Positions 1 to 38,959 of a DNA stretch of 64,000 bases are shown one piece after another. Position 1 is the first letter of the stretch. Each line of letters starts with the position of its first letter. Below the pieces are notes generated by a model, which was given only the letters and a program-made list of their open reading frames with translations, did no database searches and was not told the DNA's origin. The stretch is from positions 992,001 through 1,056,000 of the forward strand of contig CANUEZ040000206.1 of NCBI GenBank assembly GCA_948099385.1. Direction: 5' to 3'. The position numbers were made by a program, and so were the translations under genes. Source of the DNA: Fasciola hepatica. Taxonomy: Eukaryota; Platyhelminthes; Trematoda; Plagiorchiida; Fasciolidae.

Positions 1-320
1 GACGACATTTTCGAGGAAGCACACGACCGGTTTGGCGGTTGTTGCCGCTCATCAGCTATGCGTACTCGGTACTCCTATGCCCACTCGTCTTCTGACTTGT
101 ACACTACGGTGATCTTTTTTCATGTTCAATAGGATCTAATTTGAATCGTCTCGATTGTGAATGGATACTGTTGATTGAAGTGGTGACAAATGAATGAGAA
201 TTGTCATTTCTCGTAGGTATTCGTGTCTGGGTCACTGCTAACCCAACGAACAACGAGTTTGCATTTGCAAGCGCTCATCTCATATTCATAGTCAGTAAGT
301 AGTATGTGAACGTGTGTGTG
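1..320 (+). repeat. Reference satellite monomer (320 bp)
   Basis: This unit defines the offsets used in the other entries. Offsets 1-82 carry the minus-strand hammerhead-like fold (12-68). Offsets 83-140 are the most variable part: 88 T/A, 93-94 TG/TC/GG, 115 T/A, the T-tract length, 128-131 AATA/ACTA/ATAA/TATA, and 138 A/T/C. Offsets 141-205 are well conserved. Offsets 206-216 hold three recurrent alternatives (A206C, T211C, G216A). Offsets 217-320 are almost invariant and end in a short GT run. Small dyads are GAGAA-N7-TTCTC (196-212) and TTGCA-TT-TGCAA (259-270). A hand count on the consensus gives 141 G+C and 19 CpG in 320 bases. This unit itself differs from the consensus by CTACGGTG, GTGGTGAC and GTAGGTATT. 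Confidence 0.95.
12..68 (-). ncRNA. Hammerhead-ribozyme-like motif (representative of every monomer)
   Basis: Read 5' to 3' on the minus strand: stem I 5' side CGAG (68-65), loop UAC (64-62), GCAUA (61-57), G (56); core CUGAUGA (55-49); stem II GCGG (48-45), loop CAACAA (44-39), CCGC (38-35); C (34), AAA (33-31); CCGGU (30-26); C (25); stem I 3' side G (24), UGUGC (23-19), loop UUC (18-16), CUCG (15-12). This is the type I hammerhead order: CUGANGA, stem II, N-AAA, stem III, UH, stem I. Cleavage would fall between 25 and 24. Stem I pairs as 4 bp, a 3x3 internal loop and 5 bp (one G-U), then a G-G mismatch next to the core. The family needs G at core position 12; here it is C, so activity is doubtful. 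Stem III (ACCGGU) is self-complementary and has no loop, as would suit a dimer. The fold was assigned by eye. The same motif sits at monomer start +11 to +67 throughout the array. It may be a decayed ribozyme or, less likely, a coincidence. Confidence 0.5.
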
Positions 321-1277
321 GACGACATTTTCGAGGAAGCACACGACCGGTTTGGCGGTTGTTGCCGCTCATCAGCTATGCGTACTCGGTACTCCTATGC
401 CCACTCGTCTTCTGACTTGTACACTCCGATGATCTTTTATGTTCACTAGGATCTAATTTGAATCGTCTCGATTGTGAATGGATACTGTTGATTGAAGTGG
501 CGACAAATGAATGAGAATTGTCCTTTCTCGTAGTTATTCGTGTCTGGGTCACTGCTAACCCAACGAACAACGAGTTTGCATTTGCAAGCGCTCATCTCAT
601 ATTCATAGTCAGTAAGTAGTATGTGAACGTGTGTGTGGACGACATTTTCGAGGAAGCGCACGACCGGTTTGGCGGTTGTTGCCGCTCATCAGCTATGCGT
701 ACTCGGTACTCCTATGCCCACTCGACTTCTGACTTGTACACTCCGTTGATCTTTTTTCATGTTCACTAGGATCTAATTTGAATCGTCTCGATTGTGAATG
801 GATACTGTTGATTGAAGTGGCGACAAATGAATGAGAATTGTCATTTCTCGTAGTTATTCGTGTCTGGGTCACTGCTAACCCAACGAACAACGAGTTTGCA
901 TTTGCAAGCGCTCATCTCATATTCATAGTCAGTAAGTAGTATGTGAACGTGTGTGTGGACGACATTTTCGAGGAAGCACACAACCGGTTTGGCGGTTGTT
1001 GCCGCTCATCAGCTATGCGTACTCGGTACTCCTATGCCCACTCGTCTTCTGACTTGTACACTCCGATGATCATTTTTCATGTTCAATAGGATCTAATTTG
1101 AATCGTCTCGATTGTGAATGGATACTGTTGATTGAAGTGGCGACAAATGAATGAGAATTGTCATTTCTCGTAGTTATTCGTGTCTGGGTCACTGCTAACC
1201 CAACGAACAACGAGTTTGCATTTGCAAGCGCTCATCTCATATTCATAGTCAGTGAGTAGTTTGTGAACGTGTGTGTG

Positions 1278-2554
1278 GACGACATTTTCGAGGAAGCACA
1301 CGACCGGTTTGGCGGTTGTTGCCGCTCATCAGCTATGCGTACTCGGTACTCCTATGCCCACTCGTCTTCTGACTTGTACACTACGGTGATCTTTTTTCAT
1401 GTTCAATAGGATCTAATTTGAATCGTCTCGATTGTGAATGGATACTGTTGATTGAAGTGGTGACAAATGAATGAGAATTGTCATTTCTCGTAGGTATTCG
1501 TGTCTGGGTCACTGCTAACCCAACGAACAACGAGTTTGCATTTGCAAGCGCTCATCTCATATTCATAGTCAGTAAGTAGTATGTGAACGTGTGTGTGGAC
1601 GACATTTTCGAGGAAGCACACGACCGGTTTGGCGGTTGTTGCCGCTCATCAGCTATGCGTACTCGGTACTCCTATGCCCAATCGTCTTCTGACTTGTACA
1701 CTCCGATGATCTTTTATGTTCACTAGGATCTAATTTGAATCGTCTCGATTGTGAATGGATACTGTTGATTGAAGTGGCGACAAATGAATGAGAATTGTCC
1801 TTTCTCGTAGTTATTCGTGTCTGGGTCACTGCTAACCCAACGAACAACGAGTTTGCATTTGCAAGCGCTCATCTCATATTCATAGTCAGTAAGTAGTATG
1901 TGAACGTGTGTGTGGACGACATTTTCGAGGAAGCGCACGACCGGTTTGGCGGTTGTTGCCGCTCATCAGCTATGCGTACTCGGTACTCCTATGCCCACTC
2001 GACTTCTGACTTGTACACTCCGTTGATCTTTTTTCATGTTCACTAGGATCTAATTTGAATCGTCTCGATTGTGAATGGATACTGTTGATTGAAGTGGCGA
2101 CAAATGAATGAGAATTGTCATTTCTCGTAGTTATTCGTGTCTGGGTCACTGCTAACCCAACGAACAACGAGTTTGCATTTGCAAGCGCTCATCTCATATT
2201 CATAGTCAGTAAGTAGTATGTGAACGTGTGTGTGGACGACATTTTCGAGGAAGCACACAACCGGTTTGGCGGTTGTTGCCGCTCATCAGCTATGCGTACT
2301 CGGTACTCCTATGCCCACTCGTCTTCTGACTTGTACACTCCGATGATCATTTTTCATGTTCAATAGGATCTAATTTGAATCGTCTCGATTGTGAATGGAT
2401 ACTGTTGATTGAAGTGGCGACAAATGAATGAGAATTGTCATTTCTCGTAGTTATTCGTGTCTGGGTCACTGCTAACCCAACGAACAACGAGTTTGCATTT
2501 GCAAGCGCTCATCTCATATTCATAGTCAGTGAGTAGTTTGTGAACGTGTGTGTG
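1278..2554 (+). repeat. HOR-A copy 2 (1277 bp)
   Basis: Units start at 1278, 1598, 1915 and 2235 and repeat the four unit types of copy 1 in order. The only difference I see by eye over 1277 bp is A at 1681 where copy 1 has C at 404. This is a very recent tandem duplication, or conversion, of a four-monomer block. Confidence 0.95.
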
Positions 2555-3511
2555 GACGACATTTTCGAGGAAGCACACGACCGGTTTGGCGGTTGTTGCC
2601 GCTCATCAGCTATGCGTACTCGGTACTCCTATGCCCACTCGTCTTCTGACTTGTACACTACGGTGATCTTTTTTCATGTTCAATAGGATCTAATTTGAAT
2701 CGTCTCGATTGTGAATGGATACTGTTGATTGAAGTGGTGACAAATGAATGAGAATTGTCATTTCTCGTAGGTATTCGTGTCTGGGTCACTGCTAACCCAA
2801 CGAACAACGAGTTTGCATTTGCAAGCGCTCATCTCATATTCATAGTCAGTAAGTAGTATGTGAACGTGTGTGTGGACGACATTTTCGAGGAAGCACACGA
2901 CCGGTTTGGCGGTTGTTGCCGCTCATCAGCTATGCGTACTCGGTACTCCTATGCCCACTCGTCTTCTGACTTGTACACTCCGATGATCTTTTATGTTCAC
3001 TAGGATCTAATTTGAATCGTCTCGATTGTGAATGGATACTGTTGATTGAAGTGGCGACAAATGAATGAGAATTGTCCTTTCTCGTAGTTATTCGTGTCTG
3101 GGTCACTGCTAACCCAACGAACAACGAGTTTGCATTTGCAAGCGCTCATCTCATATTCATAGTCAGTAAGTAGTATGTGAACGTGTGTGTGGACGACATT
3201 TTCGAGGAAGCGCACGACCGGTTTGGCGGTTGTTGCCGCTCATCAGCTATGCGTACTCGGTACTCCTATGCCCACTCGACTTCTGACTTGTACACTCCGT
3301 TGATATTTTTTCATGTTCACTAGGATCTAATTTGAATCGTCTCGATTGTGAATGGATACTGTTGATTGAAGTGGCGACAAATGAATGAGAATTGTCATTT
3401 CTCGTAGTTATTCGTGTCTGGGTCACTGCTAATCCAACGAACAACGAGTTTGCATTTGCAAGCGCTCATCTCATATTCATAGTCAGTAAGTAGTATGTGA
3501 ACGTGTGTGTT
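2555..3511 (+). repeat. HOR-A copy 3, lacking the fourth monomer
   Basis: Units start at 2555, 2875 and 3192 and match units 1-3 of HOR-A. The third has private changes (GATATTTTTT in the T tract and AATCCAACG). The expected fourth unit (ACACAACC, GATCATTTTT) does not follow; a different monomer begins at 3512. The HOR breaks here at a monomer boundary. Confidence 0.9.
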
Positions 3512-4151
3512 GACTACATTTTCGAGGAAGCACACGACCGGTTTGGCGGTTGTTGCCGCTCATCAGCTATGCGTACTCGGTACTCCTATGCCCACTCGTC
3601 TTCTGACTTGTACACTCCGATGATCTTTTTTCATGTTCAATAGGATCTAATTTGAATCGTCTCGATTGTGAATGGATACTGTTGATTGAAGTGGCGACAA
3701 ATGAATGAGAATTGTCATTTCTCGTAGTTATTCGTGTCTGGGTCACTGCTAACCCAACGAACAACGAGTTTGCATTTGCAAGTGCTCATCTCATATTCAT
3801 AGTCAGTAAGTAGTATGTGAACGTGTGTGTGGACGACATTTTCGAGGAAGCACACGACCGGTTTGCCGGATGTTGCCGCTCATCAGCTATGCGTACTCGG
3901 TACTCCTATGCCCACTCGTCTTCTGACTTGTACACTCCGATGATCTTTTTTCATGTTCAATAGGATCTAATTTGAATCGTCTCGATTGTGAATGGATACT
4001 GTTGATTGAAGTGGCGACAAATGAATGAGAATTGTCATTTCTCGTAGTTATTCGTGTCTGTGTCACTGCCAACCCAACGAACAACGAGTTTGCATTTGCA
4101 AGCGCTCATCTCATATTCATAGTCAGTAAGTAGTATGTGAACGTGTGTGTG
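3512..4151 (+). repeat. Two linking monomers between HOR-A and HOR-B
   Basis: Units start at 3512 and 3832 (320 bp each). The first opens with GACTACATT instead of GACGACATT, a change shared with 8943 and 9903 in HOR-C. The second has private changes, TTTGCCGGATG and GTGTCTGTGTC. They belong to neither neighbouring HOR. Confidence 0.9.
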
Positions 4152-5748
4152 GACGACATTTTCGAGGAAGCACACAACCGGTTTGGCGGTTGTTGCCGCT
4201 CATCAGCTATGCGTACTCGGTACTCCTATGCCCACTCGTCTTCTGACTTGTACACTCCGATGATCATTTTTCATGTTCAATAGGATCTAATTTGAATCGT
4301 CTCGATTGTGAATGGATACTGTTGATTGAAGTGGCGACAAATGAATGAGAATTGTCATTTCTCGTAGTTATTCGTGTCTGGGTCACTGCTAACTCAACGA
4401 ACAACGAGTTTGCATTTGCAAGCGCTCATCTCATATTCATAGTCAGTAAGTAGTATGTGAACGTGTGTGCGGACGACATTTTCGAGGAAGCACACGACCG
4501 GTTTGGCGATTGTTGCCGCTCATCAGCTATGCGTACTCGGTACTCCTATGCCCACTCGACTTCTGACTTGTACACTCCGATGATCTTTTTTCATGTTCAT
4601 AAGGATCTCATTTGAATCGTCTCGATTGTGAATGGATACTGTTGATTGAAGTGGCGACAAATGAATGAGAATTGTCATTTCTCGTAGTTATTCGTGTCTG
4701 GGTCACTGCTAACCCAACGAACAACGAGTTTGCATTTGCAAGCGCTCATCTCATATTCATAGTCAGTAAGTAGTATGTGAACGTGTGTGTGGACGACATT
4801 TTCGAGGAAGCACACGACCGGTTTGGCGGTTGTTGCCGCTCATCAGCTATGCGTACTCGGTACTCCTATGCCCACTCGACTTCTGACTTGTACACTCCGA
4901 TGATCTTTTTTCATGTTCATAAGGATCTCATTTGAATCGTCTCGATTGTGAATGGATACTGTTGATTGAAGTGGCGACAAATGAATGAGAATTGTCATTT
5001 CTCGTAGTTATTCGTGTCTGGGTCACTGCTAACCCAACGAACAACGAGTTTGCATTTGCAAGCGCTCATCTCATATTCATAGTCAGTAAGTAGTATGTGA
5101 ACGTGTGTGTGGACGACATTTTCGAGGAAGCACACGACCGGTTTGGCGGTTGTTGCCGCTCATCAGCTATGCGTACTCGATACTCCTATGCCCACTCGTC
5201 TTCTGACTTGTACACTCCGATGATCTTTTATGTTCACTAGGATCTAGTTTGAATCGTCTCGATTGTGAATGGATACTGTTGATTGAAGTGGCGACAAATG
5301 AATGAGAATTGTCATTTCTCGTAGTTATTCGTGTCTGGGTCACTGCTAACCCAACGAACAACGAGTTTGCATTTGCAAGCGCTCATCTCATATTCATAGT
5401 CAGTGAGTAGTATGTGAACGTGTGTGTGGACGACATTTTCGAGGAAGCACACGACCGGTTTGGCGGTTGTTGCCGCTCATCAGCTATGCGTACTTGGTAC
5501 TCCTATGCCCACTCGTCTTCTGACTTGTACACTCCGATGATCTTTTTTCATGTTCAATAGGATCTAATATGAATCGTCTTGATTGTGAATGGATACTGTT
5601 GATTGAAGTGGCGACAAATGAATGAGAATTGTCATTTCTCGTAGTTATTCGTGTCTGGGTCACTGCTAACCCAACGAACAACGAGTTTGCATTTGCAAGC
5701 GCTCATCTCATATTCATAGTCAGTAAGTAGTATGTGAACGTGTGTGTG
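4152..5748 (+). repeat. HOR-B copy 1 (5 monomers, 1597 bp)
   Basis: Units start at 4152 (ACACAACCGG, GATCATTTTT), 4472 and 4792 (both CGACTTC with CATAAGG and CTCAT), 5112 (CTCGATACTCC, short tract, GTGAGTAGTATG) and 5429 (CTTGGTAC, AATATGAATCGTCTTG). Lengths are 320, 320, 320, 317 and 320. The block is repeated directly downstream. Confidence 0.93.
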
Positions 5749-7345
5749 GACGACATTTTCGAGGAAGCACACAACCGGTTTGGCGGTTGTTGCCGCTCAT
5801 CAGCTATGCGTACTCGGTACTCCTATGCCCACTCGTCTTCTGACTTGTACACTCCGATGATCATTTTTCATGTTCAATAGGATCTAATTTGAATCGTCTC
5901 GATTGTGAATGGATACTGTTGATTGAAGTGGCGACAAATGAATGAGAATTGTCATTTCTCGTAGTTATTCGTGTCTGGGTCACTGCTAACCCAACGAACA
6001 ACGAGTTTGCATTTGCAAGCGCTCATCTCATATTCATAGTCAGTAAGTAGTATGTGAACGTGTGTGTGGACGACATTTTCGAGGAAGCACACGACGGGTT
6101 TGGCGGTTGTTGCCGCTCATCAGCTATGCGTACTCGGTACTCCTATGCCCACTCGACTTCTGACTTGTACACTCCGATGATCTTTTTTCATGTTCATAAG
6201 GATCTCATTTGAATCGTCTCGATTGTGAATGGATACTGTTGATTGAAGTGGCGACAAATGAATGAGAATTGTCATTTCTCGTAGTTATTCGTGTCTGGGT
6301 CACTGCTAACCCAACGAACAACGAGTTTGCATTTGCAAGCGCTCATCTCATATTCATAGTCAGTAAGTAGTATGTGAACGTGTGTGTGGACGACATTTTC
6401 GAGGAAGCACACGACCGGTTTGGCGGTTGTTGCCGCTCATCAGCTATGCGTACTCGGTACTCCTATGCCCACTCGACTTCTGACTTGTACACTCCGATGA
6501 TCTTTTTTCATGTTCATAAGGATCTAATTTGAATCGTCTCGATTGTGAATGGATACTGTTGATTGAAGTGGCGACAAATGAATGAGAATTGTCCTTTCTC
6601 GTAGTTATTCGTGTCTGGGTCACTGCTAACCCAACGAACAACGAGTTTGCATTTGCAAGCGCTCATCTCATATTCATAGTCAGTAAGTAGTATGTGAACG
6701 TGTGTGTGGACGACATTTTCGAGGAAGCACACGACCGGTTTGGCGGTTGTTGCCGCTCATCAGCTATGCGTACTCGATACTCCTATGCCCACTCGTCTTC
6801 TGACTTGTACACTCCGATGATCTTTTATGTTCACTAGGATCTAGTTTGAATCGTCTCGATTGTGAATGGATACTGTTGATTGAAGTGGCGACAAATGAAT
6901 GAGAATTGTCATTTCTCGTAGTTATTCGTGTCTGGGTCACTGCTAACCCAACGAACAACGAGTTTGCATTTGCAAGCGCTCATCTCATATTCATAGTCAG
7001 TGAGTAGTATGTGAACGTGTGTGTGGACGACATTTTCGAGGAAGCACACGACCGGTTTGGCGGTTGTTGCCGCTCATCAGCTATGCGTACTCGGTACTCC
7101 TATGCCCACTCGTCTTCGGACTTGTACACTCCGATGATCTTTTTTCATGTTCAATAGGATCTAATATGAATCGTCTTGATTGTGAATGGATACTGTTGAT
7201 TGAAGTGGCGACAAATGAATGAGAATTGTCATTTCTCGTAGTTATTCGTGTCTGGGTCACTGCTAACCCAACGAACAACGAGTTTGCATTTGCAAGCGCT
7301 CATCTCATATTCATAGTCAGTAAGTAGTATGTGAACGTGTGTGTG
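5749..7345 (+). repeat. HOR-B copy 2 (1597 bp)
   Basis: Units start at 5749, 6069, 6389, 6709 and 7026, exactly 1597 bp after their partners. The rare markers CTCGATACTCC and AATATGAATCGTCTTG recur in the same slots. Differences include CGACGGGT at 6069, CTAAT with GTCCTTTCTC at 6389, and TCTTCGGAC at 7026. Divergence from copy 1 is clearly higher than between HOR-A copies. Confidence 0.92.
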
Positions 7346-8942
7346 GACGACATTTTCGCGGAAGCACACGACCGGTTTGGCGGTTGTTGCCGCTCATCAG
7401 CTATGCGTACTCGGTACTCCTATGCCCACTCGTCTTCTGACTTGTACACTCCGATGATCTTTTTTCATGTTCAATAGGATCTAATTTGAATCGTCTCGAT
7501 TGTGAATGGATACTGTTGATTGAAGTGGCGACAAATGAATGAGAATTGTCATTTCTCGTAGTTATTCGTGTCTGGGTCACTGCTAACCCAACGAACAACG
7601 AGTTTGCATTTGCAAGCGCTCATCTCATATTCATAGTCAGTAAGTAGTATGTGAACGTGTGTGTGGACGACATTTTCGAGGAAGCACACGACCGGTTTGG
7701 CGGTTGTTGCCGCTCAACAGCTATGCGTACTCGGTACTCCTATGCCCACTCGTCTTCTGACTTGTACACTCCGATGATCTTTTTTCATGTTCAATAGGAT
7801 CTAATTTGAATCGTCTCGATTGTGAATGGATACTGTTGATTGAAGTGGCGACAAATGAATGAGAATTGTCATTTCTCGTAGTTATTCGTGTCTGGGTCAC
7901 TGCTAACCCAACGAACAACGAGTTTGCATTTGCAAGCGCTCATCTCATATTCATAGTCAGTAAGTAGTATGTGAACGTGTGTGTGGACGACATTTTCGAG
8001 GAAGCACACAACCGGTTTGGCGGTTGTTGCCGCTCATCAGCTATGCGTACTCGGTACTCCTATGCCCACTCGTCTTCTCACTTGTACACTCCGATGATCT
8101 TTTTTCATGTTCAATAGGATCTAATTTGAATCGTCTCGATTGTGAATGGATACTGTTGATTGAAGTGGCGACAAATGAATGAGAATTGTCATTTCTCGTA
8201 GTTATTCGTGTCTGGGTCACTGCTAACCCAACGAACAACGAGTTTGCATTTGCAAGCGCTCATCTCATATTCATAGTCAGTAAGTAGTATGTGAACGTGT
8301 GTGTGGACGACATTTTCGAGGAAGCACACGACCGGTTTGGCGGTTGTTGCCGCTCATCAGCTATGCGTACTCGGTACTCCTATGCCCACTCGTCTTCTGA
8401 CTTGTACACTCCGATGATCTGTTATGTTCACTAGGATCTAATTTGAATCGTCTCGATTGTGAATGGATACTGTTGATTGAAGTGGCGACAAATGAATGAG
8501 AATTGTCATTTCTCGTAGTTATTCGTGTCTGGGTCACTGCTAACCCAACGAACAACGAGTTTGCATTTGCAAGCGCTCATCTCATATTCATAGTCAGTGA
8601 GTAGTATGTGAACGTGTGTGTGGACGACATTTTCGAGGAAGCACACGACCGGTTTGGCGGTTGTTGCCGCTCATCAGCTATGCGTACTCGGTACTCCTAT
8701 GCCCACTCGTCTTCTGACTTGTACACTCCGATGATCTTTTTTCATGTTCAATAGGATCTAATTTGAATCGTCTCGATTGTGAATGGATACTGTTGATTGA
8801 AGTGGCGACAAATGAATGAAAATTGTCAGTTCTCGTAGTTATTCGTGTCTGGGTCACTGCTAACCCAACGAACAACGAGTTTGCATTTGCAAGCGCTCAT
8901 CTCATATTCATAGTCAGTAAGTAGTATGTGAACGTGTGTGTT
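7346..8942 (+). repeat. Five monomers without clear higher order
   Basis: Units start at 7346, 7666, 7986, 8306 and 8623. They are close to the reference type. Private or rare markers are TTCGCGGAAGC (7346), CTCAACAGC (7666), TCTTCTCAC with ACACAACC (7986), GATCTGTTATG (8306), and GAAAATTGTCAGTTC (8623), the last shared with the unit at 9903. No block repeats next to them. Confidence 0.9.
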
Positions 8943-9902
8943 GACTACATTTTCGAGGAAGCACACGACCGGTTTGGCGGTTGTTGCCGCTCATCAGCTT
9001 TGCGTACTCGGTACTCCTATGCCCACTCGTCTTCTGACTTGTACACTCCGATGATCTTTTTTCATGTTCAATAGGATCTAATTTGAATCGTCTTGATTGT
9101 GAATGGATACTGTTGATTGAAGTGGCGACAAATGAATGAAAATTGTCATTTCTCGTAGTAATTCGTGTTTGGGTCACTGCTAACCCAACGAACAACGAGT
9201 TTGCATTTGCAAGCGCTCATCTCATATTCATAGTCAGTAAGTAGTATGTGAACGTGTGTGTGGACGACATTTTCGAGGAAGCACACGACCGGTTTGGCGG
9301 TTGTTGCCGCTCATCAGCTATGCGTACTCGGTACTCCTATGCCCACTCGTCTTCTGACTTGTACACTCCGATGATCTTTTTTCATGTTCAATAGGATCTA
9401 ATTTGAATCGTCTCGATTGTGAATGGATACTGTTGATTGAAGTGGCGACAAATGAATGAGAATTGTCATTTCTCGTAGTTATTCGTGTCTGGGTCACTGC
9501 TAACCCAACGAACAACGAGTTTGCATTTGCAAGCGCTCATCTCATATTCATAGTCAGTAAGTAGTATGTGAACGTGTGTGTGGACGACATTTTCGAGGAA
9601 GCACACAACCAGTTTGGCGGTTGTTGCCGCTCATCAGCTATGCGTACTCGGTACTCCTATGCCCACTCGTCTTCTGACTTGTACACTCCGATGATCATTT
9701 TTCATGTTCAATAGGATCTAATTTGAATCGTCTCGATTGTGAATGGGTACTGTTGATTGAAGTGGCGACAAATGAATGAGAATTGTCATTTCTCGTAGTT
9801 ATTCGTGTCTGGGTCACTGCTAACCCAACGAACAACGAGTTTGCATTTGCAAGCGCTCATCTCATATTCATAGTCAGTAAGTAGTATGTGAACGTGTGTG
9901 TT
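8943..9902 (+). repeat. HOR-C copy 1 (3 monomers, 960 bp)
   Basis: Units start at 8943 (GACTACATT, AGCTTTGCG, CGTCTTGATTG, GAAAATTG), 9263 (reference-like) and 9583 (ACACAACCAG, GATCATTTTT, GAATGGGTAC). The same order of markers recurs 960 bp downstream. Confidence 0.9.
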
Positions 9903-10862
9903 GACTACATTTTCGAGGAAGCACACGACCGGTTTGGCGGTTGTTGCCGCTCATCAGCTTTGCGTACTCGGTACTCCTATGCCCACTCGTCTTCTGACTT
10001 GTACACTCCGATGATCATTTTTCATGTTCAATAGGATCTAATTTGAATCGTCTTGATTGTGAATGGATACTGTTGATTGAAGTGGCGACAAATGAATGAA
10101 AATTGTCAGTTCTCGTAGTTATTCGTGTCTGGGTCACTGCTAACCCAACGAACAACGAGTTTGCATTTGCAAGCGCTCATCTCATATTCATAGTCAGTAA
10201 GTAGTATGTGAACGTGTGTGTGGACGACATTTTCGAGGAAGCACACGACCGGTTTGGCGGTTGTTGCCGCTCATCAGCTATGCGTACTCGGTACTCCTAT
10301 GCCCACTCGTCTTCTGACTTGTACACTCCGATGATCTTTTTTCATGTTCAATAGGATCTAATTTGAATCGTCTCGATTGTGAATGGATACTGTTGATTGA
10401 AGTGGCGACAAATGAATGAGAATTGTCATTTCTCGTAGTTATTCGTGTCTGGGTCACTGCTAACCCAACGAACAACGAGTTTGCATTTGCAAGCGCTCAT
10501 CTCATATTCATAGTCAGTAAGTAGTATGTGAACGTGTGTGTGGACGACATTTTCGAGGAAGCACACAACCAGTTTGGCGGTTGTTGCCGCTCATCAGCTA
10601 TGCGTACTCGGTACTCCTATGCCCACTCGACTTCTGACTTGTACACTCCGATGATCATTTTTCATGTTCAATAGGATCTAATTTGAATCGTCTCGATTGT
10701 GAATTTGTACTGTTGATTGAAGTGGCGACAAATGAATGAGAATTGTCATTTCTCGTAGTTATTCGTGTCTGGGTCACTGCTAACCCAACGAACAACGAGT
10801 TTGCATTTGCAAGCGCTCATCTCATATTCATAGTCAGTAAGTAGTATGTGAACGTGTGTGTG
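9903..10862 (+). repeat. HOR-C copy 2 (960 bp)
   Basis: Units start at 9903, 10223 and 10543. Markers of copy 1 recur, with some changes: GATCATTTTT and CAGTTCTCG in the first unit, CGACTTC and GAATTTGTAC in the third. The middle unit looks unchanged from copy 1. Confidence 0.9.
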
Positions 10863-13737
10863 GACGACATTTTCGAGGAAGCACACGACCGGTTTGGCGG
10901 TTGTTGCCGCTCATCAGCTATGCGTACTCGGTACTCCTATGCCCACTCGTCTTCTCACTTGTAAACTCCGATGATCATTTTTCATGTTCAATAGGATCTA
11001 ATTTGAATCGTCTCGATTGTGAATGGATACTGTTGATTGAAGTGGCGACAAATGAATGAGAATTGTCATTTCTCGTAGTTATTCGTGTCTGTGTCACTGC
11101 TAACCCAACGAACAACGAGTTTGCATTTGCAAGCGCTCATCTCATATTCATAGTCAGTAAGTAGTATGTGAACGTGTGTGTGGACGACATTTTCGAGGAA
11201 GCACACGACCGGTTTGGCGGTTGTTGCCGCTCATCAGCTATGCGTACTCGGTACTCCTATGCCCACTCGTCTTCTGACTTGTACACTCCGATGATCTTTT
11301 TTCATGTTCAAAAGGATCTAATTTGAATCGTTTCGATTGTGAATGGATACTGTTGATTGAAGTGGCGACAAATGAATGAGAATTGTCATTTCTCGTAGTT
11401 ATTCGTGTCTGGGTCACTGCTAACCCAACGAACAACGAGTTTGCATTTGCAAGCGCTCATCTCATATTCATAGTCAGTAAGTAGTATGTGAACGTGTGTG
11501 CGGACGACATTTTCGAGGAAGCACACGACCGGTTTGGCGGTTGTTGCCGCTCATCAGCTATGCGTACTCGGTACTCCTATGCCCACTCGACTTCTGATTT
11601 GTACATTCCGATGATCTTTTTTCATGTTCACTAGGATCTCATTTGAATCGTCTCGATTGTGAATGGATACTGTTGATTGAAGTGGCGACAAATGAATGAG
11701 AATTGTCATTTCTCGTAGTTATTCGTGTCTGGGTCACTGCTAACCCAACGAACAACGAGTTTGCATTTGCAAGCGCTCATCTCATATTCATAGTCAGTAA
11801 GTAGTATGTGAACGTGTGTGTGGACGACATTTTCGAGGAAGCACACGACCGGTTTGGCGGTTGTTGCCGCTCATCAGCTATGCGTACTCGGTACTCCTAT
11901 GCCCACTCGTCTTCTGACTTGTACACTCCGATGATCTTTTTCATGTTCAATAGGATCTAATTTGAATCGTCTCGATTGTGAATGGATACTGTTGATTGAA
12001 GTGGCGACAAATGAATGAGAATTGTCCTTTCTCGTAATTATTCGTGTCTGGGTCACTGCTAACCCAACGAACAACGAGTTTGCATTTGCAAGCGCTCATC
12101 TCATATTCATAGTCAGTAAGTAGTATGTGAACGTGTGTGTGGACGACATTTTCGAGGAAGCACACGACCGGTTTGGCGGTTGTTGCCGCTCATCAGCTAT
12201 GCGTACTCGGTACTCCTATGCCCACTCGTCTTCTGACTTGTACACTCCGATGATCTTTTATGTTCACTAGGATCTAATTTGAATCGTCTCGATTGTGAAT
12301 GGATACTGTTGATTGAAGTGGCGACAAATGAATGAGAATTGTCATTTCTCGTAATTATTCGTGTCTGGGTCACTGCTAACCCAACGAACAACGAGTTTGC
12401 ATTTGCAAGCGCTCATCTCATATTCATAGTCAGTAAGTAGTATGTGAACGTGTGTGTGGACGACATTTTCGAGGAAGCACACGACCGGTTTGGCGGTTGT
12501 TGCCGCTCATCAGCTATGCGTACTCGGTACTCCTATGCCCACTCGTCTTCTGACTTGTACACTCCGATGATCTTTTTCATGTTCAATAGGATCTAATATG
12601 AATCGTCTTGATTGTGAATGGATACTGTTGATTGAAGTGGCGACAAATGAATGAGAATTGTCATTTCTCGTAGTTATTCGTGTCTGGGTCACTGCTAACC
12701 CAACGAACAACGAGTTTGCATTTGCAAGCGCTCATCTCATATTCATAGTCAGTAAGTAGTATGTGAACGTGTGTGTGGACGACATTTTCGAGGAAGCACA
12801 CGACCGGTTTGGCGGTTGTTGCCGCTCATCAGCTATGCGTACTCGGTACTCCTATGCCCACTCGACTTCTGACTTGTACACTCCGATGATCATTTTTCAT
12901 GTTCAATAGGATCTAATTTGAATCGTCTCGATTGTGAATGGATACTGTTGATTGAAGTGGCGACAAATGAATGAGAATTGTCATTTCTCGTAGTTATTCG
13001 TGTCTGGGTCACTGCTAACCCAACGAACAACGAGTTTGCATTTGCAAGCGCTCATCTCATATTCATAGTCAGTGAGTAGTATGTGAACGTGTGTGTGGAC
13101 GACATTTTCGAGGAAGCACACGACCGGTTTGGCGGTTGTTGCCGCTCATCAGCTATGCGTACTTGGTACTCCTATGCCCACTCGTCTTCTGACTTGTACA
13201 CTCCGATGATCTTTTTTCATGTTCAATAGGATCTAATTTGAATCGTCTCGATTGTGAATGGATACTGTTGATTGAAGTGGCGACAAATGAATGAGAATTG
13301 TCATTTCTCGTAGTTATTCGTGTCTGGGTCACTGCTAACCCAACGAACAACGAGTTTGCATTTGCAAGCGCTCATCTCATATTCATAGTCAGTAAGTAGT
13401 ATGTGAACGTGTGTGTGGACGACATTTTCGAGGAAGCACACGACCGGTTTGGCGGTTGTTGCCGCTCATCAGCTATGCGTACTCGGTACTCCTATGCCCA
13501 CTCGTCTTCTGACTTGTACACTCCGATGATCTTTTTTCATGTTCAATAGGATCTAATTTGAATCGTCTCGATTGTGAATGGATACTGTTGATTGAAGTGG
13601 CGACAAATGAATGAGAATTGTCATTTCTCGTAATTATTCGTGTCTGGGTCACTGCTAACCCAACGAACAACGAGTTTGCATTTGCAAGCGCTCATCTCAT
13701 ATTCATAGTCAGTAAGTAGTATGTGAACGTGTGTGTG
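10863..13737 (+). repeat. Nine monomers without clear higher order
   Basis: Units start at 10863, 11183, 11503, 11823, 12142, 12459, 12778, 13098 and 13418. The first 319-bp units of the window are here (11823 and 12459, GATCTTTTTC), and GTAATTATT first appears at 11823. The unit at 12459 carries AATATGAATCGTCTTG, a HOR-B marker, so it is a dispersed relative of 5429 and 7026. No tandem block was found. Confidence 0.88.
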
Positions 13738-14688
13738 GACGACATTTTCGAGGAAGCACACGACCGGTTTGGCGGTTGTTGCCGCTCATCAGCTATGCGT
13801 ACTCGGTACTCCTATGCCCACTCGTCTTCTGACTTGTACACTCCGATGATCTTTTATGTTCACTAGGATCTAATTTGAATCGTCTCGATTGTGAATGGAT
13901 ACTGTTGATTGAAGTGGCGACAAATGAATGAGAATTGTCATTTCTCGTAGTTATTCGTGTCTGGGTCACTGCTAACCCAACGAACAACGAGTTTGCATTT
14001 GCAAGCGCTCATCTCATATTCATAGTCAGTAAGTAGTATGTGAACGTGTGTGTGGACGACATTTTCGAGGAAGCACACGACCGGTTTGGCGGTTGTTGCC
14101 GCTCATCAGCTATGCGTACTCGGTACTCCTATGCCCACTCGTCTTCTGACTTGTACACTCCGATGATCTTTTATGTTCACTAGGATCTAATTTGAATCGT
14201 CTCGATTGTGAATGGATACTGTTGATTGAAGTGGCGACAAATGAATGAGAATTGTCATTTCTCGTAGTTATTCGTGTCTGGGTCACTGCTAACCCAACGA
14301 ACAACGAGTTTGCATTTGCAAGCGCTCATCTCATATTCATAGTCAGTAAGTAGTATGTGAACGTGTGTGTGGACGACATTTTCGAGGAAGCACACGACCG
14401 GTTTGGCGGTTGTTGCCGCTCATCAGCTATGCGTACTCGGTACTCCTATGCCCACTCGTCTTCTGACTTGTACACTCCGATGATCTTTTATGTTCACTAG
14501 GATCTAATTTGAATCGTCTCGATTGTGAATGGATACTGTTGATTGAAGTGGCGACAAATGAATGAGAATTGTCATTTCTCGTAGTTATTCGTGTCTGGGT
14601 CACTGCTAACCCAACGAACAACGAGTTTGCATTTGCAAGCGCTCATCTCATATTCATAGTCAGTAAGTAGTATGTGAACGTGTGTGTG
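13738..14688 (+). repeat. Three consecutive identical-looking 317-bp monomers
   Basis: Units start at 13738, 14055 and 14372. All are 317 bp with GATCTTTTATG and CACTAGG, and I see no difference among them. This is the only clear monomer-by-monomer (period 1) amplification in the window and is likely very recent. Confidence 0.9.
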
Positions 14689-15008
14689 GACGACATTTTC
14701 GAGGAAGCACACGACGGGTTTGGCGGTTGTTGCCGCTCATCAGCTATGCGTACTCGGTACTCCTATGCCCACTCGTCTTCTGACTTGTACACTCCGATGA
14801 TCTTTTTTCATGTTTAATAGGATCTAATTTGAATCGTCTCGATTGTGAATGGATACTGTTGATTGAAGTGGCGACAAATGAATGAGAATTGTCATTTCTC
14901 GTAGTTATTCGTGTCTGGGTCACTGCTAACCCAACGAACAACGAGTTTGCATTTGCAAGCGCTCATCTCATATTCATAGTCAGTAAGTAGTATGTGAACG
15001 TGTGTGTG
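14689..15008 (+). repeat. Single linking monomer
   Basis: A 320-bp unit with CGACGGGT and the private change CATGTTTAATAGG. It separates the 317-bp triplet from HOR-D. Confidence 0.9.
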
Positions 15009-17562
15009 GACGACATTTTCGAGGAAGCACACGACCGGTTTGGCGGTTGTTGCCGCTCATCAGCTATGCGTACTCGGTACTCCTATGCCCACTCGTCTTC
15101 TGACTTGTACACTCCGATGATCTTTTGTGTTCACTAGGATCTCATTTGAATCGTCTCGATTGTGAATGGATACTGTTGATTGAAGTGGCGACAAATGAAT
15201 GAGAATTGTCATTTCCCGTAGTTATTCGTGTCTGGGTCACTGCTAACCCAACGAACAACGAGTTTGCATTTGCAAGCGCTCATCTCATATTCATAGTCAG
15301 TAAGTAGTATGTGAACGTGTGTGTGGACGACATTTTCGAGGAAGCACACGACCGGTTTGGCGGTTGTTGCCGCTCATCAGCTATGCGTACTCGGTACTCC
15401 TATGCCCACTCGTCTTCTGACTTGTACACTCCGATGATCTTTTTTCATGTTCAATAGGATCTAATTTGAATCGTCTCGATTGTGAATGGATACTGTTGAT
15501 TGAAGTGGCGACAAATGAATGAGAATTGTCATTTCTCGTAGTTATTCGTGTCTGGGTCACTGCTAACCCAACGAACAACGAGTTTGCATTTGCAAGCGCT
15601 CATCTCATATTCATAGTCAGTAAGTAGTATGTGAACGTGTGTGTGGACGACATTTTCGAGGAAGCACACGACCGGTTTGGCGGTTGTTGCCGCTCATCAG
15701 CTATGCGTACTCGGTACTCCTATGCCCACTCGTCTTCGGACTTGTACACTCCGATGATCATTTTTCATGTTCAATAGGATCTAATTTGAATCGTCTCGAT
15801 TGTGAATGGATACTGTTGATTGAAGTGGCGACAAATGAATGAGAATTGTCATTTCTCGTAGTTATTCGTGTCTGGGTCACTGCTAACCCAACGAACAACG
15901 AGTTTGCATTTGCAAGCGCTCATCTCATATTCATAGTCAGTAAGTAGTATGTGAACGTGTGTGTGGACGACATTTTCGAGGAAGCACACGACCGGTTTGG
16001 CGGTTGTTGCCGCTCATCAGCTATGCGTACTCGGTACTCCTATGCCCACTCGTCTTCTGACTTGTACACTCCGATGATCTTTTTTCATGTTCAATAGGAT
16101 CTAATTTGAATCGTCTCGATTGTGAATGGATACTGTTGATTGAAGTGGCGACAAATGAATGAGAATTGTCATTTCTCGTAGTTATTCGTGTCTGGGTCAC
16201 TGCTAACCCAACGAACAACGAGTTTGCATTTGCAAGCGCTCATCTCATCTTCATAGTCAGTAAGTAGTATGTGAACGTGTGTGTGGACGACATTTTCGAG
16301 GAAGCACACGACCGGTTTGGCGGTTGTTGCCGGTCATCAGCTATGCGTACTCGGTACTCCTATGCCCACTCGTCTTCGGACTTGTACACTCCGATGATCT
16401 TTTATGTTCACTAGGATCTAATTTGAATCGTCTCGATTGTGAATGGATACTGTTGATTGAAGTGGCGACAAATGAATGAGAATTGTCATTTCTCGTAGTT
16501 ATTCGTGTCTGGGTCACTGCTAACCCAACGAACAACGAGTTTGCATTTGCAAGCGCTCATCTCATATTCATAGTCAGTAAGTAGTATGTGAACGTGTGTG
16601 TGGACGACATTTTCGAGGAAGCACACGACCGGTTTGGCGGTTGTTGCCGCTCATCAGCTATGCGTACTCGGTACTCCTATGCCCACTCGTCTTCTGACTT
16701 GTACACTCCGATGATCTTTTTTCATGTTCACTAGGATCTAATTTGAATCGTCTCGATTGTGAATGGATACTGTTGATTGAAGTGGCGACAAATGAATGAG
16801 AATTGTCATTTCTCGTAGTTATTCGTGTCTGGGTCACTGCTAACCCAACGAACAACGAGTTTGCATTTGCAAGCGCTCATCTCATATTCATAGTCAGTAA
16901 GTAGTATGTGAACGTGTGTGTGGACGACATTTTCGAGGAAGCACACGACCGGTTTGGCGGTTGTTGCCGCTCATCAGCTATGCGTACTCGGTACTCCTAT
17001 GCCCACTCGTCTTCTGACTTGTACACTCCGATGATCATTTTTCATGTTCAATAGGATCTAATTTGAATCGTCTCGATTGTGAATGGATACTGTTGATTGA
17101 AGTGGCGACAAATGAATGAGAATTGTCATTTCTCGTAGTTATTCGTGTCTGGGTCACTGCTAACCCAACGAACAACGAGTTTGCATTTGCAAGCGCTCAT
17201 CTCATATTCATAGTCAGTAAGTAGTATGTGAACGTGTGTGTGGACGACATTTTCGAGGAAGCACACGACCGGTTTGGCGGTTGTTGCCGCTCATCAGCTT
17301 TGCGTACTCGGTACTCCTATGCCCACTCGTCTTCTGACTTGTACACTCCGATGATCTTTTTTCATGTTCAATAGGATCTAATTTGAATCGTCTCGATTGT
17401 GAATGGATACTGTTGATTGAAGTGGCGACAAATGAATGAGAATTGTCATTTCTCGTAGTTATTCGTGTCTGGGTCACTGCTAACCCAACGAACAACGAGT
17501 TTGCATTTGCAAGCGCTCATCTCATATTCATAGTCAGTAAGTAGTATGTGAACGTGTGTGTG
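15009..17562 (+). repeat. HOR-D copy 1 (8 monomers, 2554 bp; weak)
   Basis: Units start at 15009 (CTCAT, TCATTTCCCG), 15326, 15646 (TCTTCGGAC), 15966 (CATCTTCAT), 16286 (GCCGGTCAT, TCTTCGGAC), 16603, 16923 and 17243. Four rare-marker slots recur 2554 bp downstream, but several slots differ, so the block is either an old duplication or heavily converted. Confidence 0.65.
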
Positions 17563-20113
17563 GACGACATTTTCGAGGAAGCACACGACCGGTTTGGCGG
17601 TTGTTGCCGCTCATCAGCTATGCGTACTCGGTACTCCTATGCCCACTCGTCTTCTGACTTGTACACTCCGATGATCTTTTATGTTCACTAGGATCTCATT
17701 TGAATCGTCTGGATTGTGAATGGATACTGTTGATTGAAGTGGCGACAAATGAATGAGAATTGTCATTTCCCGTAGTTATTCGTGTCTGGGTCACTGCTAA
17801 CCCAACGAACAACGAGTTTGCATTTGCAAGCGCTCATCTCATATTCATAGTCAGTAAGTAGTATGTGAACGTGTGTGTGGACGACATTTTCGAGGAAGCA
17901 CACGACCGGTTTGGCGGTTGTTGCCGCTCATCAGCTATGCGTACTCGGTACTCCTATGCCCACTCGTCTTCTGACTTGTACACTCCGATGATCATTTTTC
18001 ATGTTCAATAGGATCTAATTTGAATCGTCTCGATTGTGAATGGATACTGTTGATTGAAGTGGCGACAAATGAATGAGAATTGTCATTTCTCGTAGTTATT
18101 CGTGTCTGGGTCACTGCTAACCCAACGAACAACGAGTTTGCATTTGCAAGCGCTCATCTCATCTTCATAGTCAGTAAGTAGTATGTGAACGTGTGTGTGG
18201 ACGACATTTTCGAGGAAGCACACGACCGGTTTGGCGGTTGTTGCCGCTCATCAGCTATGCGTACTCGGTACTCCTATGCCCACTCGTCTTCGGACTTGTA
18301 CACTCCGATGATCATTTTTCATGTTCAATAGGATCTAATTTGAATCGTCTCGATTGTGAATGGATACTGTTGATTGAAGTGGCGACAAATGAATGAGAAT
18401 TGTCATTTCTCGTAGTTATTCGTGTCTGGGTCACTGCTAACCCAACGAACAACGAGTTTGCATTTGCAAGCGCTCATCTCATATTCATAGTCAGTAAGTA
18501 GTATGTGAACGTGTGTGTGGACGACATTTTCGAGGAAGCACACGACCGGTTTGGCGGTTGTTGCCGCTCATCAGCTATGCGTACTCGGTACTCCTATGCC
18601 CACTCGTCTTCTGACTTGTACACTCCGATGATCTTTTTTCATGTTCACTAGGATCTAATTTGAATCGTCTCGATTGTGAATGGATACTGTTGATTGAAGT
18701 GGCGACAAATGAATGAGAATTGTCATTTCTCGTAGTTATTCGTGTCTGGGTCACTGCTAACCCAACGAACAACGAGTTTGCATTTGCAAGCGCTCATCTC
18801 ATCTTCATAGTCAGTAAGTAGTATGTGAACGTGTGTGTGGACGACATTTTCGAGGAAGCACACGACCGGTTTGGCGGTTGTTGCCGGTCATCAGCTATGC
18901 GTACTCGGTACTCCTATGCCCACTCGTCTTCGGACTTGTACACTCCGATGATCATTTTTCATGTTCAATAGGATCTAATTTGAATCGTCTCGATTGTGAA
19001 TGGATACTGTTGATTGAAGTGGCGACAAATGAATGAGAATTGTCATTTCTCGTAGTTATTCGTGTCTGGGTCACTGCTAACCCAACGAACAACGAGTTTG
19101 CATTTGCAAGCGCTCATCTCATATTCATAGTCAGTAAGTAGTATGTGAACGTGTGTGTGGACGACATTTTCGAGGAAGCACACGACCGGTTTGGCGGTTG
19201 TTGCCGCTCATCAGCTATGCGTACTCGGTACTCCTATGCCCACTCGACGTCTGACTTGTACACTCCGATGATCTTTTTTCATGTTCAATAGGATCTAATT
19301 TGAATCGTCTCGATTGTGAATGGATACTGTTGATTGAAGTGGCGACAAATGAATGAGAATTGTCATTTCTCGTAGTTATTCGTGTCTGGGTCACTGCTAA
19401 CCCAACGAACAACGAGTTTGCATTTGCAAGCGCTCATCTCATATTCATAGTCAGTAAGTAGTATGTGAACGTGTGTGTGGACGACATTTTCGAGGAAGCA
19501 CACGACGGGGTTGGCGGTTGTTGCCGCTCATCAGCTATGCGTACTCGGTACTCCTATTCCCACTCGTCTTCTGACTTGTACACTCCGATGATCTTTTATG
19601 TTCACTAGGATCTAATTTGAATCGTCTCGATTGTGAATGGATACTGTTGATTGAAGTGGCGACAAATGAATGAGAATTGTCATTTCTCGTAGTTATTCGT
19701 GTCTGGGTCACTGCTAACCCAACGAACAACGAGTTTGCATTTGCAAGCGCTCATCTCATATTCATAGTCAGTAAGTAGTATGTGAACGTGTGTGTGGACG
19801 ACATTTTCGAGGAAGCACACGACCGGTTTGGCGGTTGTTGCCGCTCATCAGCTATGCGTACTCGGTACTCCTATGCCCACTCGTCTTCTGACTTGTACAC
19901 TCCGATGATCTTTTATGTTCACTAGGATCTAATTTGAATCGTCTCGATTGTGAATGGATACTGTTGATTGAAGTGGCGACAAATGAATGAGAATTGTCAT
20001 TTCTCGTAGTTATTCGTGTCTGGGTCACTGCTAACCCAACGAACAACGAGTTTGCATTTGCAAGCGCTCATCTCATATTCATAGTCAGTAAGTAGTATGT
20101 GAACGTGTGTGTG
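17563..20113 (+). repeat. HOR-D copy 2 (8 monomers, 2551 bp; weak)
   Basis: Units start at 17563 (CTCAT, TCATTTCCCG), 17880, 18200 (TCTTCGGAC), 18520 (CATCTTCAT), 18840 (GCCGGTCAT, TCTTCGGAC), 19160, 19480 and 19797. The pair CATCTTCAT followed by TCTTCGGAC also appears at 17880/18200, so a two-monomer conversion inside the block is possible. Confidence 0.62.
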
Positions 20114-21704
20114 GACGACATTTTCGAGGAAGCACACGACCGGTTTGGCGGTTGTTGCCGCTCATCAGCTATGCGTACTCGGTACTCCTATGCCCACTCG
20201 TCTTCTGACTTGTACACTCCGATGATCTTTTATGTTCACTAGGATCTCATTTGAATCGTCTCGATTGTGAATGGATACTGTTGATTGAAGTGGCGACAAA
20301 TGAATGAGAATTGTCATTTCTCGTAGTTATTCGTGTCTGGGTCACTGCTAACCCAACGAACAACGAGTTTGCATTTGCAAGCGCTCATCTCATATTCATA
20401 GTCAGTAAGTAGTATGTGAACGTGTGTGTGGACGACATTTTCGAGGAAGCACACGACCGGTTTGGCGGTTGTTGCCGGTCATCAGCTATGCGTACTCGGT
20501 ACTCCTATGCCCACTCGTCTTCTGACTTGTACACTCCGATGATCATTTTTCATGTTCAATAGGATCTAATTTGAATCGTCTCGATTGTGAATGGATACTG
20601 TTGATTGAAGTGGCGACAAATGAATGAGAATTGTCATTTCTCGTAATTATTCGTGTCTGGGTCACTGCTAACCCAACGAACAACGAGTTTGCATTTGCAA
20701 GCGCTCATCTCATATTCATAGTCAGTAAGTAGTATGTGAACGTGTGTGTGGACGACATTTTCGAGGAAGCACACGACGGGTTTGGCGGTTGTTGCCGCTC
20801 ATCAGCTATGCGTACTCGGTACTCCTATGCCCACTCGTCTTCTGACTTGTACACTCCGATGATCTTTGATGTTCACTAGGATCTAATTTGAATCGTCTCG
20901 ATTGTGAATGGATACTGTTGATTGAAGTGGCGACAAATGAATGAGAATTGTCATTTCTCGTAGTTATTCGTGTCTGGGTCACTGCTAACCCAACGAACAA
21001 CGAGTTTGCATTTGCAAGCGCTCATCTCATGTTCATAGTCAGTAAGTAGTATGTGAACGTGTGTGTGGACGACATTTTCGAGGAAGCACACGACCGGTTT
21101 GGCGGTTGTTGCCGGTCATCAGCTATGCGTACTCGGTACTCCTATGCCCACTCGTCTTCTGACTTGTACACTCCGATGATCTTTGATGTTCACTAGGATC
21201 TAATTTGAATCGTCTCGATTGTGAATGGATACTGTTGATTGAAGTGGCGACAAATGAATGAGAATTGTCATTTCTCGTAATTATTCGTGTCTGGGTCACT
21301 GCTAACCCAACGAACAACGAGTTTGCATTTGCAAGCGCTCATCTCATATTCATAGTCAGTAAGTAGTATGTGAACGTGTGTGTGGACGACATTTTCGAGG
21401 AAGCACACGACCGGTTTGGCGGTTGTTGCCGCTCATCAGCTATGCGTACTCGGTACTCCTATGCCCACTCGTCTTCTGACTTGTACACTCCGATGATCTT
21501 TTTTCATGTTCAATAGGATCTAATTTGAATCGTCTCGATTGTGAATGGATACTGTTGATTGAAGTGGCGACAAATGAATGAGAATTGTCATTTCTCGTAG
21601 TTATTCGTGTCTGGGTCACTGCTAACCCAACGAACAACGAGTTTGCATTTGCAAGCGCTCATCTCATCTTCATAGTCAGTAAGTAGTATGTGAACGTGTG
21701 TGTG
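20114..21704 (+). repeat. Five transitional monomers
   Basis: Units start at 20114, 20431, 20751, 21068 and 21385. GATCTTTGATG, later typical of type a, appears first at 20751 and 21068. GCCGGTCAT recurs at 20431 and 21068. The unit at 21385 ends with CATCTTCAT as type g does. This looks like the edge of HOR-E, where its monomer types begin. Confidence 0.85.
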
Positions 21705-22976
21705 GACGACATTTTCGAGGAAGCACACGACCGGTTTGGGCGGTTGTTGCCGCTCATCAGCTATGCGTACTCGGTACTCCTATGCCCACTCGTCTTCTGA
21801 CTTGTACACTCCGATGATCTTTTTTCATGTTCAATAGGATCTAATTTGAATCGTCTCGATTGTGAATGGATACTGTTGATTGAAGTGGCGACAAATGAAT
21901 GAGAATTGTCATTTCTCGTAGTTATTCGTGTCTGGGTCACTGCTAACCCAACGAACAACGAGTTTGCATTTGCAAGCGCTCATCTCATATTCAAAGTCAG
22001 TAAGTAGTATGTGAACGTGTGTGTGGACGACATTTTCGAGGAAGCACACGACCGGTCTGGCGGTTGTTGCCGCTCATCAGCTATGCGAACTCGGTACTCC
22101 TATGCCCACTCGACTTCTGACTTGTACACTCCGATGATCTTTTATGTTCACTAGGATCTTATTTGAATCGTCTCGATTGTGAATGGATACTGTTGATTGG
22201 AGTGGCGACAAATGAATGAGAATTGTCATTTCTCGTAGTTATTCGTGTCTGGGTCACTGCTAACCCAACGAACAACGAGTTTGCATTTGCAAGCGCTCAT
22301 CTCATATTCAAAGTCAGTAAGTAGTATGTGAACGTGTGTGTGGACGACATTTTCGAGGAAGCACACGACCGGTTTGGCGGTTGTTGCCGCTCATCAGCTA
22401 TGCGTACTCGGTACTCCTATGCCCACTCGTCTTCTGACTTGTACACTCCGATGATCTTTTATGTTCACTAGGATCTTATTTGAATCGTCTGGATTGTGAA
22501 TGGATACTGTTGATTGAAGTGGCGACAAATGAATGAGAATTGTCATTTCTCGTAGTTATTCGTGTCTGGGTCACTGCTAACCCAACGAACAACGAGTTTG
22601 CATTTGCAAGCGCTCATCTCATATTCATAGTCAGTAAGTAGTATGTGAACGTGTGTGTGGACGACATTTTCGAGGAAGCACACAACCAGTTTGGCGGTTG
22701 TTGCCGCTCATCAGCTATGCGTACTCGGTACTCCTATGCCCACTCGACTTCTGACTTGTACACTCCGATGATCTTTTATGTTCAATAGGATCTAATTTGA
22801 ATCGTCTCGATTGTGAATGGATACTGTTGATTGAAGTGGCGACAAATGAATGAGAATTGTCATTTCTCGTAGTTATTCGTGTCTGGGTCACTGCTAACCC
22901 AACGAACAACGAGTTTGCATTTGCAAGCGCTCATCTCATATTCATAGTCAGTAAGTAGTATGTGAACGTGTGTGTG
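21705..22976 (+). repeat. HOR-E related block: h, i-like, i-like, j
   Basis: Units start at 21705 (h: TTTGGGCGG, ATTCAAAG), 22026 (GGTCTGG, GCGAAC, CTTAT, but GATTGGAG as in f and ATTCAAAG as in h), 22343 (CTTAT and CGTCTGG without the i head) and 22660 (j). The i features are split over two monomers. Either i arose by fusing these two, or i was split here. Confidence 0.88.
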
Positions 22977-25841: not shown

Positions 25842-26794
25842 GACGACATTTTCGAGGAAGCACACGACGGGTTTGGCGGTTGTTGCCGCTCATCAGCTAT
25901 GCGTACTCGGTACTCCTATGCCCACTCGTCTTCTGACTTGTACACTCCGATGATCTTTGATGTTCACTAGGATCTAATTTGAATCGTCTCGATTGTGAAT
26001 GGATACTGTTGATTGAAGTGGCGACAAATGAATGAGAATTGTCCTTTCTCGTAGTTATTCGTGTCTGGGTCACTGCTAACCCAACGAACAACGAGTTTGC
26101 ATTTGCAAGCGCTCATCTCATATTCATAGTCAGTAAGTAGTATGTGAACGTGTGTGTGGACGACATTTTCGAGGAAGCACACGACCGGTTTGGCGGTTGT
26201 TGCCGCTCATCAGCTATGCGTACTCGGTACTCCTATGCCCACTCGTCTTCTGACTTGTACACTCCGATGATCTTTTTCATGTTCAATAGGATCTTATTTG
26301 AATCGTCTCGATTGTGAATGGATACTGTTGATTGAAGTGGCGACAAATGAATGAGAATTGTCATTTCTCGTAATTATTCGTGTCTGGGTCACTGCTAACC
26401 CAACGAACAACGAGTTTGCATTTGCAAGCGCTCATCTCATATTCATAGTCAGTAAGTAGTATGTGAACGTGTGTGTGGACGACATTTTCGAGGAAGCACA
26501 CGACCGGTTTGGCGGTTGTTGCCGCTCATCAGCTATGCGTACTCGGTACTCCTATGCCCACTCGTCTTCTGACTTGTACACTCCGATGATCTGTTATGTT
26601 CACTAGGATCTAATTTGAATCGTCTCGATTGTGAATGGATACTGTTGATTGGAGTGGCGACAAATGAATGAGAATTGTCATTTCTCGTAGTTATTCGTGT
26701 CTGGGTCACTGCTTACACAACGAACAACGAGTTTGCATTTGCAAGCGCTCATCTCATATTCATAGTCAGTAAGTAGTATGTGAACGTGTGTGTG
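25842..26794 (+). repeat. HOR-E partial a b f before K module 1
   Basis: Units start at 25842 (a), 26159 (b) and 26478 (f). After f the order leaves HOR-E and enters the K module. The same a b context precedes the second K module at 53845. Confidence 0.9.
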
Positions 26795-38891: not shown

Positions 38892-38902
38892 GACGACATT
38901 TT

Positions 38903-38959
38903 CGAGGAAGCACACGACCGGTCTGGCGGTTGTTGCCGCTCATCAGCTATGCGAACTCG
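38903..38959 (-). ncRNA. Hammerhead-like motif, i-type variant with second core break
   Basis: Plus-strand GGTCTGG makes the minus strand AGAC instead of AAAC, so the conserved A14 becomes G in addition to the C at position 12. GCGAAC changes the internal loop of stem I. This variant has spread through the HOR copies, which argues that ribozyme activity is not being maintained now. Confidence 0.4.

Follow-up and report, generated by a model that had tools for sequence, protein, structure and literature searches.

Does the hammerhead-like motif that recurs in every unit of this Fasciola hepatica satellite act as a ribozyme, did its ancestor, or is the likeness an accident, and what does the answer imply for how such an array grows? 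The window (the whole 64,000-nt stretch of DNA that was analysed) is a single tandem array with nothing else in it. Its units are 317-320 bp long, a few spacings being 315, 316 or 321; the mean pairwise identity among the 200 full monomers is 97.3%, and GC content is ~44%. Metazoan non-LTR retrozymes are described as short tandem repeats with a GC content below 50% and a type I hammerhead, with RNAs of ~170-400 nt (PMC7229834), and within the window, which holds array interior only, we likewise find no LTRs, short units and less than 50% GC. We give a probability of about 0.8 to the reading that this is a retrozyme-derived satellite that has lost its ribozyme and grows at the DNA level.

The initial annotation placed the motif on the minus strand, and its letters and coordinates are right for monomer 1 (Table 1); the block has 201 copies in the array. 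Alignment to the Rfam model RF02275 and per-copy parsing agree on a type I arrangement of three helices that opens at stem I, with a stem III of one pair. The CUGANGA core is intact in 200 of 201 copies, with U7 replaced by G in nine. Stem II has its four pairs in 187 of the 200 parsed copies (one copy with a seven-base loop II was mis-parsed as having one pair), and stem I pairs 1.2-1.6 are all formed in 193 of the 200. A15.1 is kept in 200 of 201 copies and U16.1 in all of them, while A14 has become G in 7 of the 201 and an extra C lies beside position 12 in six. The palindromic tetraloop CCGG is found in 139 of 201 copies, the others having CUGG (33), CCCG (28) or CCGA (1), and position H17 is always an allowed base (C in 163, U in 38). 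The single copy outside the parsing was read by eye and has C12, the G·G mismatch described below, CUGAGGA, and U at H17. Two details of the annotation need correction. Its reading 'C-AAA, ACCGGU' has the right letters but counts one A twice, since ACCGGU begins with the A that ends CAAA; and its stem I pairing GCAUA/UGUGC leaves out G56 and G24, two bases that stand opposite one another, mismatched as G·G, at 2.1/1.1.

Table 1. Coordinates of the array and of the parts of the hammerhead-like block in monomer 1 (window positions)
Feature	Position	Strand	Remarks
Tandem array	1..64000	none	201 copies: 200 full, the last cut by the window end
Hammerhead-like block, monomer 1	12..68	minus	one per monomer; 201 copies across the array
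CUGAUGA core (C3-A9)	49..55	minus	direct reading
Stem II GCGG (48-45)/CCGC (38-35), loop CAACAA (44-39)	35..48	minus	reading and per-copy parsing
Position 12 = C	34	minus	201/201 copies
A13, A14, A15.1 (AAA 33-31), tetraloop CCGG (30-27), U16.1 (26)	26..33	minus	one-pair stem III
Predicted cleavage site between H17 (25) and G1.1 (24)	24..25	minus	
Stem I 3' side: GUGUGC 24-19 (UGUGC pairing), UUC internal loop 18-16, CUCG outer helix 15-12	12..23 (+ G1.1 at 24)	minus	
Stem I 5' side: CGAG outer helix 68-65, UAC internal loop 64-62, GCAUA 61-57, G2.1 at 56	56..68	minus	

Two departures from a hammerhead are fixed throughout the array. All 201 copies have C instead of G12, the general base, in what should be G12 A13 A14, and all 201 have G1.1 (24) facing G2.1 (56), a mismatch beside the cleavage site where a hammerhead has a pair. 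The annotation had noted that one core base differs, which is correct as far as it goes but understates the case: that base is the general base itself, and the G·G mismatch was missed. In a full-length hammerhead, G12A slows cleavage about a million-fold (PMC2553840). When every single and double mutant of one hammerhead was measured, the catalytic guanines G25 and G39 showed low activity in every combination, and the data of that study that we draw on hold no second change that rescues them (PMC9901934); G39 of that hammerhead probably corresponds to G12. A review cautions that evidence bearing directly on the role of G12 was limited and that metal ions may have a part in that role (PMC6257768). 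Our literature search found no value for the cleavage rate of a C12 hammerhead, and a review that refers to G12 throughout makes no mention of C12 (PMC6257768). Perreault et al. (2011) excluded any match whose core was altered or whose 1.1-2.1 positions were mispaired, and by their account the excluded matches were for the most part cryptic mutant hammerheads located in repeated elements (PMC3088659). By published rules of this kind, either defect alone disqualifies a hammerhead, and the array fits their description of cryptic mutants. With both defects in all copies, transcripts of the array should not self-cleave at a meaningful rate, and from the sequence we regard ribozyme activity as improbable.

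We considered two ways in which position 12 might have been misjudged or offset. No register shift that would give G at position 12 could be seen by eye, as the base that follows CCGC, the partner of GCGG, is C. Nor does stem II offer a compensating change: the pair 10.1-11.1 is broken in 11 of the 200 full monomers, and the copies with C10.1 (6/200) and those with G11.1 (5/200) are different copies.

How far the block resembles known hammerheads can be gauged with covariance models. Searching both strands of the first 1,300 bases against 4,227 Rfam families, we found the best match to be RF02275 (Hammerhead_HH9) at 5-69 on the minus strand, with 31 bits and an E-value of 1.8e-5. All four full motif copies in those 1,300 bases match RF02275 on the minus strand with 27.0 to 31.0 bits. 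The whole window gives 187 matches at E<=1, and the 150 listed of these 187 are all to RF02275, on the minus strand, at no more than 32 bits. None of the 4,227 families reaches its gathering score in the window, the cut-off for RF02275 being 52. Core, stem II, UAC internal loop and AAACC..GGUC line up between model and satellite, whereas the satellite is without the model's stem III loop, has C for G at position 12 and leaves 1.1-2.1 unpaired. The UAC loop corresponds to that of the HH9 consensus in alignment position; a tertiary contact between stem I and loop II is putative. As our sole control with an intact core, a hammerhead on viral contig L001 (intact CUGAUGA and GAAA, paired 1.1-2.1) scores 23.5 bits with RF02275 (E 0.0046). 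Since a hammerhead with a full core can score this low, a score under the cut-off is compatible with a true hammerhead fold. This viral hammerhead (IMGVR_UViG_3300037485_002668, ~24-93, minus strand) has a long ACCGG/CCGGU stem III and is itself well under gathering.

The resemblance could nonetheless be a coincidence, in which case the satellite never had a ribozyme and a hairpin-rich stretch of 65 nt that happens to look like a hammerhead has been repeated 201 times. This would fit with an RF02275 score below gathering and with the predicted lowest-energy fold of the isolated 65-nt RNA, a plain extended hairpin (-20.1 kcal/mol, z -2.1) that 7 of 200 shuffles equal in stability. It would also fit with how readily a lenient descriptor, which was composed after the sequence had been seen, is matched by shuffled sequence. 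Asking for CUGANGA, a stem II of four pairs, GAAA with no more than one change, U16.1, H17 and five of six stem I pairs, we found matches in 922 of 3,414,500 dinucleotide shuffles of monomer 1, both strands taken (~1 in 3,700), in 330 of the same 3,414,500 once the outer stem I helix was added, and 32 in a smaller run of 160,000. The number of copies carries no weight in this, as all 201 are close duplicates and count as one observation. Coincidence has more trouble with an E-value of 1.8e-5 over 4,227 families, with an internal loop at the place where the HH9 consensus has one, and with the satellite context, in that a 320 bp unit with 44% GC and A-CCGG-U is the known setting of type I hammerheads. 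Scores and context taken together make a chance resemblance unlikely, and the annotation's own verdict to that effect is borne out by the E-value, though without any family at gathering score.

If the likeness is real, the ribozyme might still be at work. C12 and G·G would then form an altered active site, and the RNAs would dimerise via ACCGGU in the manner of newt double hammerheads. The two changes do occur together in every copy, ACCGGU is self-complementary, and many animal type I hammerheads with a weak stem III are reported to need dimerisation for cleavage (PMC7761336); active core variants, though rare, occur in nature (PMC3088659), and weak Mn2+-dependent variants are on record as well (PMC11014351). 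Yet G12, which activates the nucleophile (PMC2553840), has been lost, the catalytic positions went unrescued in the complete double-mutant scan of one hammerhead (PMC9901934), a core-mutated hammerhead of a schistosome W element did not cleave (PMC8490949), and ACCGGU itself is changed in 62 of 201 copies. Predicted folding points the same way. A two-strand double hammerhead joined by ACCGGU has a predicted energy of -37.3 kcal/mol, and the best fold of two strands reaches -43.1. In the predicted ensemble of the single strand (Vienna), G8 pairs with C12 at a probability of 0.88, G2.1-G5 of the core is taken up by pairing with the stem III CGGU, and the ensemble with an open core lies ~6 kcal/mol above the full one. 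Such energies leave tertiary contacts out of account and carry little evidential weight; of 198 cave-cricket sequences, 146 can form the hammerhead but only 33 have it as their lowest-energy fold (PMC2837043). We set a working ribozyme aside as very improbable, chiefly for the C12 and G·G carried by all copies, and consider it extremely unlikely that the array represents a natural hammerhead variant without a guanine general base, with C12 and G1.1·G2.1 as a new active site that cleaves in ACCGGU-joined dimers. The annotation spoke of a hammerhead-like fold and made no outright claim of cleavage. The type I architecture that it proposed for the minus strand of each monomer is supported by the RF02275 match and by published animal satellites; a working ribozyme is not supported, in view of C12, G·G and the predicted C12-G8 pairing. 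The array might instead be a passenger, its transcripts cleaved or circularised in trans by active relatives elsewhere in the genome. The half of the motif that holds the cleavage site is nearly intact, with U16.1 retained and H17 an allowed base in all 201 copies, and newt repeats are known to be cleaved by paired motifs that have an elongated stem III (PMC6155905). We think this quite unlikely, given that no active relative was found in the viral, plasmid and prokaryote collections and that G1.1 would still need a partner.

A retrozyme-derived satellite with a lost ribozyme accommodates these results best. On this reading, the ancestor of the array was a non-LTR retrozyme of the animal type, in which tandem units of a few hundred bp carry a type I hammerhead. 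The change of G12 to C and the loss of the 1.1-2.1 pair would have come before the common ancestor of the copies, or early enough for homogenisation to carry them into every copy. The timing of the loss is not fixed, because homogenisation could have spread both defects once they had arisen. From then on, transcripts would not self-cleave at a meaningful rate, and the array would grow and homogenise by block duplication of DNA rather than by way of ribozyme-made RNA circles. Descent from an active hammerhead rests on resemblance, as no intact-core relative was found in the collections searched, which comprise viruses, plasmids and prokaryotes. Words of 20-21 bases from the satellite and patterns for parts of the hammerhead had no match in the viral and genome contigs of these collections; one further hammerhead pattern led to the viral control described above. 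A blastn search with 640 bases of the satellite found nothing in phages or plasmids. These negative results have little weight, given that the collections are viral, plasmid and prokaryotic and may omit records of the source genome. The RF02275 score under gathering counts against a retrozyme origin with later loss, as does the stability of the circular monomer. Folded as a circle, monomer 1 reaches -71.5 kcal/mol on the minus strand (z -1.2, 57.5% paired) and -79.6 kcal/mol on the plus strand (z 0.2, 62.5% paired), so that on neither strand is it stable beyond its 100 shuffles; the papers give no threshold for this measure.

The pattern of variation among copies bears on whether the motif is still under selection. 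We observe no extra conservation of the motif: 21 of its 57 sites are polymorphic, as are 77 of the 262 sites outside it (p 0.27). For the 11 core positions, 3 are polymorphic versus 95 of 308 elsewhere (p 1.0); minor variants are carried by fewer copies per core site (mean 0.8 versus 3.25), on too few sites to weigh. Recent common ancestry explains the kept pairing of stems I and II as well as constraint does. The order of the monomers is informative about growth. Runs of at least five consecutive monomers recur in order, with at most one difference per monomer, 18 times in the window, the longest being nine monomers, and no such run arose in any of 300 permutations of monomer order. The permutations speak to order and not to mechanism, but recurring blocks of this kind suggest DNA block duplication rather than the insertion of single units from RNA circles, and unequal exchange is the probable means of copying. 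The blocks recur at lags such as 16, 19, 35 and 62 units, and 13 of the 18 runs start at monomer 116 or later; among the first 60 monomers, a lag of four units fits best.

Mutated hammerheads in repetitive DNA are a kind already known, and the closest parallels help to place the array. Salamander and newt satellites (axolotl HHR_Amex1 and newt satellite DNA) share the ~320-330 bp monomer, the type I order and the tandem arrangement (PMC7229834). The axolotl hammerhead sits in a 330 bp repeat, its stem III consists of a single pair and a palindromic tetraloop, and its cleavage is most efficient in dimers (PMC7229834; see also PMC7761336 and PMC6155905); A-CCGG-U here is the same type of stem III, a likeness judged from the published description. 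What sets the F. hepatica array apart from the amphibian satellites is that every copy in the window has C12 and G·G at 1.1-2.1. The metazoan retrozymes that have been tested, among those of coral, mussel and others, self-cleave and form RNA circles, neither of which would be predicted here given the two defects. In length, at least 201 units here compare with up to 62 in a coral retrozyme. The pDo500 satellite of Dolichopoda cave crickets also has a hammerhead in each repeat, but in that satellite the hammerhead has compensatory changes and its conservation significantly exceeds that of the remaining sequence (PMC2837043), whereas the motif described here has no extra conservation, and G12 is mutated in 1 of 198 pDo500 sequences (PMC2837043) as against C12 in 201 of 201 copies. 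The cryptic mutants of Perreault et al. (2011) and the schistosome W elements share with the array a core mutation or mispairing next to the core and a home in repetitive DNA (PMC3088659, PMC8490949), whereas here a single defective form fills a homogeneous array of 64 kb. Our literature search found no earlier description of a single defective form filling an array of that size, and six 16-base words from the satellite do not occur in the paper texts searched.

Recent literature treats hammerheads in animal satellites as part of the engine by which the repeats spread (PMC7229834, PMC7761336). In such a context, an array of at least 64 kb with the general base replaced in every copy amounts to a natural experiment. 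If the descent proposed here is right, such a satellite needs no working ribozyme to build up extensive, homogeneous arrays. The array also carries a warning for annotation, as motif scans tolerant of a single core mismatch will report presumably dead sequences as ribozymes.

Several minor features of the monomer deserve mention. A CENP-B-box-like pattern has no match on either strand of doubled monomer 1. Among the 200 spacings, 320 bp occurs 82 times, 317 bp 80 times and 319 bp 27 times. Per-offset variation is highest at monomer offsets 101-120 (mean 9.2%), followed by 121-140 (4.1%) and 21-40 (3.4%), and there is almost none at offsets 261-280 (0.05%). The two arms of a 9-nt inverted repeat at window positions 185-193 and 204-212 are 89% complementary, and a GGGT...ACCC hairpin seen by eye at ~229-244 is paired in the circular fold of the minus-strand monomer.
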